Shown here: positions 45,060 to 64,000 of the stretch, piece after piece | Numbering within the stretch: position 1 is the stretch's first letter | Layout of the letters: the number at the start of each line of letters is the position of its first letter | Assembly: GCA_016789105.1 (NCBI GenBank) | Contig: JAEURN010000008.1 | Coordinates: forward strand, 62,001 to 126,000 | Direction of reading: 5' to 3' | Length of the DNA: 64,000 nucleotides | Origin: Armatimonadota bacterium | GTDB lineage: Bacteria; Armatimonadota; Fimbriimonadia; Fimbriimonadales; Fimbriimonadaceae | The notes under the pieces: generated by a model | What the model was told of the DNA's origin: nothing | The model's database searches: none | What the model saw: only the letters and a program-made list of their open reading frames with translations | Translations under genes and position numbers: made by a program

Positions 45060-45842
45060 ATGGCCCTTTCACCGGAAACGTTGCAACGCACTTGGATCGA
45101 ATACAAGGTCTACAAAAGCCAGGATGCCCGGGTCGAGCTGATCAACCATTACAGCTACCTGGTCAAGATCACCTCGGGCCGGCTGGTCACCAGCGTCCCT
45201 CAAGGGTTGGATCGCGACGACCTGGTTTCGGCCGGCGTGATCGGCCTCATCAAAGCCGTCGACCAATACGACCCGACCCGCGACGTCAAGTTTGAAACGT
45301 ATGCCATCGCCCTCATCCGTGGCGCCATCTTGGAAATGCTCCGGGACGAGGACTGGGTGCCCCGGTCGATTCGCGAAAAGCTCAAAGCCCTCGACAAAGC
45401 GCAAAAGGAATTGGAAAAGGAATACGGCCGCCCCGCTTCGCAACGGGAGCTCTCCAACTTCATGGGCATGAGTGAGCAAGAAGTCAGCGACTTGCTGGTC
45501 CGCGTCGGCAAAACCAACGTCTACAGCTTGGACGACGTCGTCGGCGGATCCAGCGACGGCGACGACCACATCCACTTTATCGAAATGATCGTCGACGGGG
45601 ACGCCGACACCGAAGGACAGATGGACGGAAAGGAACTCCGCCGCGTGATGTCCGCAGGAGTCGACCGGCTCCCGGAACGGGAACGGCTCGTCATCGCCCT
45701 CTACTACTTCGAAGGTTTGACCTTCAAAGAAATTGGCAAGGTGTTGGGGGTCAGCGAAAGCCGGGTCTACCAACTCCACACGCAGGCAATGGGGCGCTTG
45801 CGCAACTTCCTCAAGGACGAAGGCATCCCGCACGTGGCGTAA
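45060..45842 (+). CDS. FliA/WhiG-family RNA polymerase sigma factor
   Basis: A group 3 sigma-70 factor, 260 residues. Region 2 covers residues 20-95 (DARVELINHYSYLVKITSGRL, DLVSAGVIGLIKAVDQYDP, FETYAIALIRGAILEMLRDEDW), region 3 follows (VPRSIREKLKALDKA, PASQRELSNFMGMSEQEVSDL), and region 4 is LPERERLVIALYYFEGLTFKEIGKVLGVSESRVYQLHTQA. It recognises promoters for motility or development in other bacteria. There is no flagellar gene nearby. A small gene with a ribosome site follows 22 bases downstream. Confidence 0.93.
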   Translation: MALSPETLQRTWIEYKVYKSQDARVELINHYSYLVKITSGRLVTSVPQGLDRDDLVSAGVIGLIKAVDQYDPTRDVKFETYAIALIRGAILEMLRDEDWVPRSIREKLKALDKAQKELEKEYGRPASQRELSNFMGMSEQEVSDLLVRVGKTNVYSLDDVVGGSSDGDDHIHFIEMIVDGDADTEGQMDGKELRRVMSAGVDRLPERERLVIALYYFEGLTFKEIGKVLGVSESRVYQLHTQAMGRLRNFLKDEGIPHVA

Positions 45843-54310: not shown

Positions 54311-55582
54311 TTATGCAGCGATTTGGCCAGATCCGCCGCCCATGCGGCGCATCGCTACCTTGATCAAGTCTGCGCCGCCGCGGCCGTCATCCGGTGCCGA
54401 AGCCCAGCCAAAGTGGAACTTGACGGCCCCTTGGCCAGAAATGCGCGACACCAACCATTGGTCGACCCTCCGTTGGACGCGATCCTTGACGGCTTCGATA
54501 TTGCCGCCCGTCCCGGGCAGGATGAGCCCAAAACCCGTGGATCCGTTCCGGCACACCAGGTCCAGTGCCCGCAGGCTCTGCTTGAGGAAGGCGGCGGAAT
54601 CGATCAAGAAATCGCGCGCCGTGTCTTCGCCATAAAAGCCGCGGAGTTCCCGTAGCCCGTCGATTTCGACCAAAATTACGCTGACAGTGGTTTCCAAACT
54701 CACCGCCCGGTGGGCTTCTTCGCTCAACCGCGCCCGGAAATAGTCTTCGTCGTAAATCCCCAACTCGGGATCCAACACCGTCCGCTCTTCGGGCGAAGAG
54801 CTGCGCAGGTTCCGTTCTTCCGCGTCATCTTTGTTAAGGATCTTGCGGAGCTTGGTGAGGGATTGGCGCAGGATGTGGGAGACGTAGTTGCAGCTGATGC
54901 CGAGCCGGTTGGCGATCTCGGTTTGGTTGAGCGCATCGAAGTGGAACAGGCACAAAACCTCGCGTTCAAGGTCGCGGAGCTGTTCCATTGCCGATTCCAG
55001 CAGCACGCGGTCTTCCACGCTCACTTGCTCGATGCTGCTCAGGGCCGCGTCGAGCTTTTCAAGGTCGCTGTCCCCTTCGCCGTCGTCGCCCGCCGTCACG
55101 TCGAGCGAGGCCAGCTTCACGGTCTCCAGGCTGGCAATGACTTCTTGAACCGCCGATTCGCTAGAGCCGATCCGCTCGGCGATTTCCCGCTCGGTCGGTT
55201 GGCGTTGCAGCTCGGCTTGGAGCGCTTGGCTGGCCTTGTTGACCTTGTGGCGGAGTTCTTGCAACCAAGCCGGGTGCCGGATCGTTTGGGCCCGGTCGCG
55301 CAAATAGTGTTTGATCTCGCCAGCGATGAGGTGCGTGGCGTACGTGTTGAATTGCACGCCGACCCCCGCGTCGAATTTGCTCAGGGCGTTCAGCAGGCCG
55401 ATGTAGCCCACTTGGACAAGGTCGTCCAGCGGCTCGCTGCCCGCATAACGCCGGGCGATGCGCTCCACCATCCCCGAATAGTGCACGATGATGAGGTCTT
55501 TTGTGTCGGGCCGCGGGTCTTCCAAGTACCGTTGGACCAACGCCTCCGCATCGTTAGGTTTTTTTGCCGATGACTCTGACAT
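54311..55582 (-). CDS. sigma-70 family sigma factor fused to a degenerate GGDEF domain
   Basis: A 423-residue protein. Residues 25-98 are sigma region 2 (DLIIVHYSGMVERIARRYAG, DLVQVGYIGLLNALSKFD, FNTYATHLIAGEIKHYLRD), 100-160 region 3, 196-250 region 4 with a helix-turn-helix (LNQTEIANRLGISCNYVSHILRQ). Residues 270-415 are GGDEF-like (LVEIDGLRELRGFYGED, LKQSLRALDLVCRNGSTGFGLILPGTG): the GGDEF signature reads RNGSTGF (345-351), so catalysis is unlikely. GGAG five bases before the ATG supports the start at 55582. Confidence 0.88.
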   Translation of the reverse strand: MSESSAKKPNDAEALVQRYLEDPRPDTKDLIIVHYSGMVERIARRYAGSEPLDDLVQVGYIGLLNALSKFDAGVGVQFNTYATHLIAGEIKHYLRDRAQTIRHPAWLQELRHKVNKASQALQAELQRQPTEREIAERIGSSESAVQEVIASLETVKLASLDVTAGDDGEGDSDLEKLDAALSSIEQVSVEDRVLLESAMEQLRDLEREVLCLFHFDALNQTEIANRLGISCNYVSHILRQSLTKLRKILNKDDAEERNLRSSSPEERTVLDPELGIYDEDYFRARLSEEAHRAVSLETTVSVILVEIDGLRELRGFYGEDTARDFLIDSAAFLKQSLRALDLVCRNGSTGFGLILPGTGGNIEAVKDRVQRRVDQWLVSRISGQGAVKFHFGWASAPDDGRGGADLIKVAMRRMGGGSGQIAA

Positions 55583-55712: not shown

Positions 55713-56915
55713 TTACTTGACGCTGTTGACCAGCTTGAAAATCGGCGTCATGACTGAGATGGCGATGAAACCAACGACCACCCCGAGGAAGATGATGAGC
55801 AGTGGCTCGATCATCGAAGTCAAGCCTTTGACCGTTTGTTCAACCTCGCTGTCATAGAAGTCGCCCACCTTGACGAGCATCTCGCTCAGCCGGCCCGATT
55901 CTTCACCGATGTCGATCATCTGGGTGACCATTGCGGGGAAAAGACCGGAATTGGCCAGCGGCATGCTCAGTTTGTTCCCTTCCCGGATGGCAAGGCGCGT
56001 TTGATCCACTGCATTGGTCAACACCTGGTTGCCCAGCGTTTCAGCGACGATCTCAAGGCTCCGCATCATTGGGACACCTGAATTGATCAAGGTTCCCAAT
56101 GTCCGGCAGAACCGGGCGACGCTCATCTTGAGCGCCAGCTCGCCCATCACCGGGACCTTGAGCTTGATGAAGTCGGTTTGGTATTTGCCCTTGGGGGTCT
56201 TTGAATAGGATTTGAGGCCAAAGAACGCGGCCCCCATCGCGATCAGGATCATCCACCAGGATTTCTGCATGAAATCACCCATCGCAAACAAAGCGGCGGT
56301 GATGGCGGGTAGCTCGACATCCATCCCATCGAAAATCTCTTTGAACTTGGGAAGGACAAAACTGAACAGCACAAACAGCATGATTTGGCTGAAGCACAAA
56401 ACCAAGACCGGGTACATCATCGCGGACTTGATCTTGCCCTTGACCTCGGATTCGTACTCCAAGAACCCGCTGAGGCGGTCGAGGATCGTATCCAAGATCC
56501 CGCCGATTTCGGCGGCGCGGATCATGTTTACATAAAGCTTCGAGAAAATCGTCGGGTGCTTGGCCAGCGCCTCGTTCAGCGTGATCCCGCTTTTGACATC
56601 GCTCGCCACCATGTCCAAAACTGGCTTCAACACCGGGTCTTTGCATTGGGTGCTGAGGATTTCCAAGCAGCGGAGGATCGGGATCCCGGCGTCGATCATG
56701 GTCGCGAACTGGCGTGAAAACACCACGATCGACTTCATCTTGACCTTGCCCTTGCCGATCGTCGCGACTTTCTTCTTCTTGATCTCTTTGATGTCCAGAA
56801 TCTGCAACTGCTGTTCGCGCAAGCGGTTCAATATCAGGGCCTCATGGTCAGCCTCCATAACGGCTTTGACCTGTTTCCCTGTCGGATCGACTGCTGTGTA
56901 TGCGAAGTACGGCAT
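55713..56915 (-). CDS. pilC: type IV pilus/type II secretion inner-membrane platform protein
   Basis: A 400-residue GspF/PilC protein: two T2SSF domains, the first at about 60-185 (FSRQFATMIDAGIPILRCLEIL, EIGGILDTILDRLSGFLEYE) and the second at about 265-390 (VARFCRTLGTLINSGVPMMRSLEIV, EESGRLSEMLVKVGDFYDSEVEQ). Three hydrophobic segments are seen. It moves pilins into the growing fibre with an ATPase, pairing with the pilin genes elsewhere in the window. A GAGGAG sequence lies 11 bases before the ATG at 56915. No pilB or pilT is adjacent. Confidence 0.93.
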   Translation of the reverse strand: MPYFAYTAVDPTGKQVKAVMEADHEALILNRLREQQLQILDIKEIKKKKVATIGKGKVKMKSIVVFSRQFATMIDAGIPILRCLEILSTQCKDPVLKPVLDMVASDVKSGITLNEALAKHPTIFSKLYVNMIRAAEIGGILDTILDRLSGFLEYESEVKGKIKSAMMYPVLVLCFSQIMLFVLFSFVLPKFKEIFDGMDVELPAITAALFAMGDFMQKSWWMILIAMGAAFFGLKSYSKTPKGKYQTDFIKLKVPVMGELALKMSVARFCRTLGTLINSGVPMMRSLEIVAETLGNQVLTNAVDQTRLAIREGNKLSMPLANSGLFPAMVTQMIDIGEESGRLSEMLVKVGDFYDSEVEQTVKGLTSMIEPLLIIFLGVVVGFIAISVMTPIFKLVNSVK

Positions 56916-57094
56916 CTGGCCAGAATCTCCTCGGAGCGCCAATTAGGCAGCCCCGACCCAACACAGATTGTCGGCTCAGGGCTCTCCGATTCCACAGGTT
57001 GATTCCATAAATTTGGCAGAGCGTCCCAACATTCCCCGCAACCCTGCCGGGCTCCCGCCGCAAAACGGCTCCGCCATGCCAAAATAGCCGCCGT

Positions 57095-63155: not shown

Positions 63156-64000
63156 ATGACCCGAGAATCGACCGCCTCCGACCCTGGGATCGGCAGCTAC
63201 CTGAGCCGCCTCACGCAGGCCCCCTTGCTCTCGGCTGAAGAAGAGCGGGTGCTCACGGTCGCCGCCCAAAACGGGTCGGCGGCCGCCCGGGAACGCCTTG
63301 TCGAATCCAACATCCGGCTGGTCATCAACATCGCCAAGGGTTACCATTCCCGGCAAATCCCATTGGAAGACCTGATCCAAGAAGGGGCGATCGGGCTCAT
63401 CACTGCCATCGAAAGGTTCGACCCCGGCAAGGGCTTCCGGTTTTCCACCTATGCGACCCACTGGATCAAACAGTCCATCGGCCGCGCCGTTGATAGTAAA
63501 TCAAAAACGATCCGGTTGCCCGCCCACATCAGCCAAACCCTGCGGCGGATCGAAAAAACCCGGACGGACATCATGGCCAAAACGGGCTGCGACCCCACCC
63601 ATGAGCAGATCGCCCGGGAAATGGGGATCAGCCTGCGCAAACTCGCCAGCCTGATGCAGGCATCGCAGGAGCTCATCAGCCTCGAAATCCGTGTCGGCGA
63701 CGGCGAAAGCTCCACTCTGGGGAGCCTGTTGCCTGACACCGCCAACCGCGACCCCGAAGAGGCGATCATCGACAGCGAGGTGATCGAAGAGCTCAACGAA
63801 TTCCTCAACCTCCTCACCGACCGCGAACGACGGATCGTGCAATACCGGCTCCGCAACGACGATGGGACCAGCCGATTCCGCGACGAATTGAGCGTAGAAC
63901 TGAGGATCACCCGCGAACGGGTCCGCCAAATCGAAATCCAAGCGATCAAAAAACTTCGGCAGATTGCATCCCGCCGAAGAACAAAAGAGTATTTGGGGTG
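63156..64000 (+). CDS. sigma-70 RpoD/RpoS-like sigma factor, truncated by window end
   Basis: At least 281 residues of a sigma-70-family factor. Region 1.2 is GIGSYLSRLTQAPLLSAEEE, region 2 covers RLVESNIRLVINIAKGYH, EDLIQEGAIGLITAIERFDP and FSTYATHWIKQSIGRAV, region 3 follows (HISQTLRRIEKTRTDIMA), and region 4 is LLTDRERRIVQYRL through VELRITRERVRQIEIQAIKKLRQ. In region 2.3 the usual WW pair is HW. AAGAGAGG close to the ATG is a Shine-Dalgarno sequence. No stop is reached. Divergent from the SpoIIM gene. Confidence 0.93.
   Translation, partial: MTRESTASDPGIGSYLSRLTQAPLLSAEEERVLTVAAQNGSAAARERLVESNIRLVINIAKGYHSRQIPLEDLIQEGAIGLITAIERFDPGKGFRFSTYATHWIKQSIGRAVDSKSKTIRLPAHISQTLRRIEKTRTDIMAKTGCDPTHEQIAREMGISLRKLASLMQASQELISLEIRVGDGESSTLGSLLPDTANRDPEEAIIDSEVIEELNEFLNLLTDRERRIVQYRLRNDDGTSRFRDELSVELRITRERVRQIEIQAIKKLRQIASRRRTKEYLG

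Follow-up and report, generated by a model that had tools for sequence, protein, structure and literature searches.

The known routes from second messengers to σ factors run via separate anti-σ proteins. In the closest described system, the anti-σ factor RsiG, armed by c-di-GMP, acts on WhiG, and the targets in Rubrobacter are genes for type IV pili (PMC8325347). The ligand is bound there by a separate coiled-coil protein carrying the motif E(X)3S(X)2R(X)3Q(X)3D. Effectors of the PopA/PelD type combine a dead GGDEF site with an intact RxxD I-site and act, in response to c-di-GMP, on the localisation of proteins or on exopolysaccharide synthesis. PleD and DgcR are feedback-inhibited, active diguanylate cyclases. 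The allosteric site of PleD is formed by R359, D362, and R390 from one domain and R313 of the adjacent molecule (PMC7288161), and a c-di-GMP dimer in this site cross-links two GGDEF domains (PMC7288161; PMC8041772); a comparison of the I-site residues is available for DgcR (PMC8041772). The σ factors SigB, SigF, and SigG are controlled by RsbW/SpoIIAB.

In the 64,000-nucleotide stretch of Armatimonadota DNA analysed here (the window), we identified a gene that joins a complete alternative σ factor to a degenerate GGDEF domain (Table 1). As in the RsiG-WhiG system, the σ factor would be under c-di-GMP control, but the putative sensor is the I-site of a covalently joined GGDEF domain and the RsiG motif is absent from the fusions and the window. 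With the PopA/PelD-type receptors the fusion protein shares the dead GGDEF site and the intact RxxD motif, whereas its presumed output, a σ factor, lies in the same chain. Its GGDEF part has the same fold as PleD and DgcR and the same four ligand residues as PleD, but catalysis seems to be lost and the allosteric site alone remains. The σ part belongs to the same group as SigB, SigF, and SigG, but it scores below the curated TIGR02980 cut-off, carries a C-terminal GGDEF domain, and occurs in a genome in which no stand-alone RsbW was found. No published description of a σ-GGDEF fusion was found in the open-access literature searched (subscription journals were outside the scope). The components are known singly, while their combination in one protein appears to be new and would represent a solution independent of RsiG-WhiG, with the sensor built in.

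Table 1. Features of the fusion locus and its surroundings (window coordinates)
Feature	Position	Strand	Basis
σ-GGDEF fusion gene, 423 aa	54311..55582	(-)	ORF and domain calls; start backed by alignment of relatives
Sigma-70 region 2, residues 32-98	55289..55489	(-)	Pfam PF04542, 9.3e-16
Sigma-70 region 3, residues 109-171	55070..55258	(-)	Pfam PF04539, 1.8e-11
Sigma-70 region 4, residues 198-247	54842..54991	(-)	Pfam PF04545, 8.4e-12
Degenerate GGDEF domain, residues 271-413	54344..54772	(-)	Pfam PF00990, 1.1e-15; AlphaFold2; Foldseek
RNGSTGF, residues 345-351, replacing R-x-GG[DE]EF; putative dead active site	54530..54550	(-)	Translation and alignment
Primary I-site motif R338-A-L-D341 (= PleD R359xxD362)	54560..54571	(-)	R338 and D341 each in 68/69 fusions
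R368, third primary I-site residue (= PleD R390)	54479..54481	(-)	65/69 fusions
R292, secondary I-site arginine (= PleD R313, ligand contact on partner subunit)	54707..54709	(-)	69/69 fusions
Type IV pilus platform gene of the pilC/gspF type, immediately upstream of the fusion; probable ATG at 56915	55713..56942	(-)	Pfam T2SSF, 7.5e-64
FliA/σ28-like promoter element CTGTGGA-N16-CCGACAAT	56967..56997	(-)	About 50 nt upstream of probable pilC start
Stand-alone FliA/WhiG-type σ factor, likely reader of the pilC promoter	45060..45842	(+)	TIGR02479, 238 bits (cut-off 189.6)

The fusion gene is open throughout, without any internal stop codon, and all four Pfam domains lie in one frame. The start at 55582 is supported by relatives that begin with MSEA... 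at the same place. A preliminary description of this DNA had proposed a single continuous frame that links σ70 regions 2-3-4 to a GGDEF-like domain with the signature RNGSTGF, and had named a GGDEF profile search and a search for homologues of the same domain order among the checks. All of this was borne out. PF00990 matches the predicted part with 58.2 bits against a curated cut-off of 23.8 (a separate genome scan found the GGDEF part at E 4.3e-16), the signature reads R345-NGSTG-F351, and a whole-genome search (E ≤ 1e-50) returned relatives of the fusion in 185 of 291 Armatimonadota genomes, representing 108 of 156 genera. The majority of these matches span the σ and GGDEF parts in one frame, and divergent fusions, which do exist, are missed at this threshold. 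A scan of genome contigs gave close relatives only, whose labels, where given, were Armatimonadetes, Fimbriimonadaceae, and Chthonomonas. The possibility of a sequencing frameshift that artificially joins two genes can be excluded, since the same joined frame recurs in independent assemblies (87-32% identity) and across the phylum. We also rejected a plasmid origin, because the plasmid search gave matches to the σ part only, none covering 80% of the query, and a viral origin, because no relative was found among viral contigs. In one closely related complete genome (G006, locus L013) the fusion frame is disrupted after residue ∼334, within the GGDEF part, by a TGA followed by another frame, which could reflect either a natural truncation or a sequencing error.

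All three σ70 profiles (PF04542, PF04539, and PF04545) match above their cut-offs. The top-scoring subfamily is SigB/F/G (TIGR02980), although its 185.4 bits remain below the curated cut-off of 234.35, and membership of the FliA/WhiG clade is likewise not met (FliA_WhiG, 119.7 bits; cut-off 189.6). Judged by these scores, the σ part is best described as SigB/F/G-type and not WhiG-type; its closest solved structure is SigB of S. aureus (8x6g). In a tree of the σ parts, nearly all stand-alone σ factors cluster (100/98) apart from the fusions. The number of fusion origins is uncertain because of long branches and very distant RpoD rows. One protein that groups with the fusions (L085:2725-3804(+)) has a short basic tail and no GGDEF domain, which has possibly been lost secondarily. 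Alignment-based AlphaFold2 modelling of the fusion resulted in a mean pLDDT of 73 (for most of the GGDEF part, 80-90) and a pTM of 0.38. Due to this low pTM, the mutual placement of the two parts is unreliable, while the domain folds are usable: Foldseek assigned the N-terminal part to σ factors and the C-terminal part to GGDEF domains, e.g. 4urg of T. maritima (TM 0.80). An alignment-free model of the GGDEF part alone was of too poor quality for use.

We subsequently aligned the GGDEF parts of 69 fusions (effectively 57 sequences, on average 30% identical) alongside canonical GGDEF proteins from the genome of the window. The register of the PleD sequence used for numbering was checked at the published positions R313, R359, D362, and R390, and a PDB profile search, which matched PleD chain 2wb4, agrees with the same register at R292. 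A functional diguanylate cyclase requires GG[DE]EF and the Mg- and guanine-binding residues D327, N335, and D344, and this requirement is met by none of the 69 fusions. GG[DE]EF is absent from every one of them, as are the equivalent of N335 and the complete triple; in the window protein, the three positions are occupied by E306, R314, and R323, and GSTGF stands in place of GG[DE]EF. Loss of catalysis, which the preliminary description had already considered likely, is therefore strongly supported by the alignment. The same residues bear on the idea that the domain is a sensor of a different nucleotide, for instance GTP, as reported for the GGDEF domain of Caulobacter CC3396. GTP-binding degenerate GGDEF domains exist (PMC7288161), but with GG[DE]EF and the N335 equivalent kept in none of the 69 fusions, and the three guanine- and metal-binding residues never kept together, we regard this explanation as scarcely credible.

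The I-site residues behave in the opposite way. Sequence-weighted conservation amounts to 100% for R292, 98% each for R338 and D341, and 93% for R368, and these positions rank 1, 2, 3, and 8 among 150, while the catalytic positions rank between 62 and 141. The complete quartet is found in 63 of 69 fusions and the R-R-D triple in 67; R368 has no equivalent in four fusions, and RxxD is broken in two. Of six canonical GGDEF proteins from this genome, not one contains the quartet. The combination of RxxD with supporting arginines that characterises degenerate c-di-GMP receptors of the PopA/PelD class is thus present. This pattern indicates that the enzyme was discarded and its product-binding site kept by selection, and a c-di-GMP receptor is the best reading of the domain. 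The earlier suggestion that it may bind c-di-GMP is accordingly strengthened by a full PleD-type quartet, at which the conservation of the domain is highest; binding itself is inferred, in the absence of binding data.

The gene adjoining the fusion on its upstream side is pilC in 53 of 73 fusion loci, and genes for the type II/IV secretion ATPase (T2SSE) precede pilC in several distant families. The putative promoter upstream of pilC resembles the flagellar FliA/WhiG consensus TAAA...GCCGATAA, from which it differs by a slightly longer spacer. Of about 28 distinct loci from Fimbriimonadaceae, 18 have CCGA[CT]AA at a comparable position; its background frequency is 0.17 per kb per strand. Searching seven genomes with CTNNNGA-N16-CCGRYAAT gave 24 matches compared with two for the reversed control, and in four of the seven, including that of the window, the pattern lies upstream of flgK as well as of pilC. 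The element was found neither in the loci examined from genus g20 nor in most distant families; all conclusions about the promoter are restricted to the Fimbriimonadaceae. A match near a pilin cluster (L098) was not counted, because the site faces away from the pilin genes. The stand-alone FliA/WhiG-type protein, encoded 8.5 kb from the fusion, is probably the flagellar σ factor of this genome, as far as profile scores can tell. Given this separate protein, we dropped as the default the assumption that the fusion is itself the flagellar σ factor, which had been suggested by the FliA-type promoter of its operon, without being able to exclude it. Most simply, FliA would be responsible for transcribing pilC together with the fusion gene, although FliA dependence is an inference; this would place the fusion one step below FliA. 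It is not excluded that the fusion reads the pilC promoter by itself.

Co-occurrence data place the fusion in a motility and c-di-GMP package. Further GGDEF proteins are encoded in all 185 fusion-bearing genomes, whereas 40 of the 106 fusion-free genomes have at most one GGDEF protein (Fisher 1e-20, uncorrected for kinship). Within genus g20, the fusion, a pilC orthologue (65-72% identity), and FlhA are present together in 10 of 10 genomes, while the eight fusion-free genomes all lack FlhA and a pilC orthologue (best pilC match 42%). FlhA was detected in 22 of 24 fusion-bearing and two of 23 fusion-free genomes of a set picked partly for GGDEF absence. Loss of the fusion therefore tracks the flagellum no less closely than it tracks c-di-GMP, and the latter correlation is partly confounded. 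Two fusion-bearing genomes (G117 and G124) lack FlhA, yet encode several GGDEF proteins each; conversely, five of the eight fusion-free g20 genomes still have 4-11 GGDEF domains. None of these counts is corrected for kinship, and the flagellum and c-di-GMP cannot be fully separated as correlates of the fusion. Three near-complete Fimbriimonadaceae genomes of g20 (G050, G068, and G070) contain no detectable GGDEF domain, compared with 9-18 in their fusion-bearing relatives, and represent a probable natural loss of c-di-GMP synthesis. As proof of c-di-GMP dependence, the pattern in which the fusion is lost is weakened, since the flagellum is missing from the same genomes.

How could the activity of the σ part be regulated? 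No stand-alone RsbW-type anti-σ factor was detected in the genome; its three matches to PF13581 (HATPase_c_2) are long open reading frames that read as histidine kinases. Likewise, a scan limited to the fusions and the six frames of the window did not reveal the RsiG motif, in line with the contrast to the separate anti-σ protein of Streptomyces that had been drawn beforehand. In view of both results, control in cis, exerted by the GGDEF part, requires the fewest assumptions. The GGDEF domain could also be a relic, or serve only as a structural module for dimerisation, with the σ factor controlled by FliA-dependent transcription, by proteolysis, or by an unseen anti-σ factor. Such a view would be compatible with the degenerate active site, with a FliA-type promoter that may control expression, and with the disruption (G006/L013) and apparent loss (L085) of the GGDEF part in single relatives. 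A relic would not be expected to show its strongest conservation at ligand-contact residues at only 30% domain identity, and the missing RsbW-type protein and RsiG motif also speak against it; overall, we consider it improbable.

We therefore propose, as a likely but inferred model, that the fusion is a c-di-GMP-gated alternative σ factor in one polypeptide; ligand binding, cross-linking, gating, its direction, and the regulon are all deduced. FliA would transcribe pilC together with the fusion gene. Within one GGDEF domain, R338, D341, and R368 would hold an intercalated c-di-GMP dimer, which R292 of a second domain would clamp, as in PleD, so that c-di-GMP cross-links two fusion molecules. 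In the cross-linked form the σ regions would be held off core RNA polymerase. When the c-di-GMP level drops, the dimer would open, and the σ factor could engage the polymerase and transcribe a motility or pilus gene set. The GGDEF domain would thus replace a separate anti-σ factor. That c-di-GMP inhibits rather than activates is the direction we prefer, but only by a small margin. An activating ligand belongs to a broader alternative, in which c-di-GMP may also be bound for localisation or partner recruitment without direct gating of the σ factor. PopA, a degenerate GGDEF protein with an intact RxxD motif, works by polar sequestration (PMC12564702), the pilC neighbour would fit a partner in the cell envelope, and the likewise conserved residues R285, E288, and E289 could form a partner surface. 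However, transcription is the obvious output of a covalent link to a complete σ factor, and the short linker between the two parts (median 22 residues) favours direct intramolecular control. Overall, this alternative seems rather unlikely.

Returning to direct gating by c-di-GMP, its most far-reaching form is one to which we incline only slightly. It holds that the fusion is a phylum-wide single-chain σ factor set directly by c-di-GMP, through a feedback-inhibition site reused from a dead cyclase, and expressed by FliA together with a pilus motor gene. Such a protein would link the state of the flagellum and the level of c-di-GMP to a second gene set, with no anti-σ factor involved. If true, no wiring between c-di-GMP and the choice of promoter would be more direct than receptor and σ factor in one chain, and the protein would illustrate how an enzyme's feedback site can be turned into a pure sensor. 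The predictions of the model are concrete and open to testing (four point mutations, one operon, and one promoter class), in a phylum whose regulation is little studied.

Some additional observations concern genes of related function. In relatives, three genes lie right behind matches to the FliA-type promoter (L128:654-1493(-), L134:1575-2891(+), and L137:1539-3029(+)); two of the products have no family match and one is a PAS-domain sensor, and all three are candidates for the same regulon. The window also encodes an RpoD/RpoS-like σ70 factor (63315-63977(+); L141), one of three RpoD-type σ factors in the genome. Finally, this 2.75-Mb genome contains strikingly many proteins with a prepilin-type N-methylation signal, 56 in total, often in open frames of about 250-400 aa.
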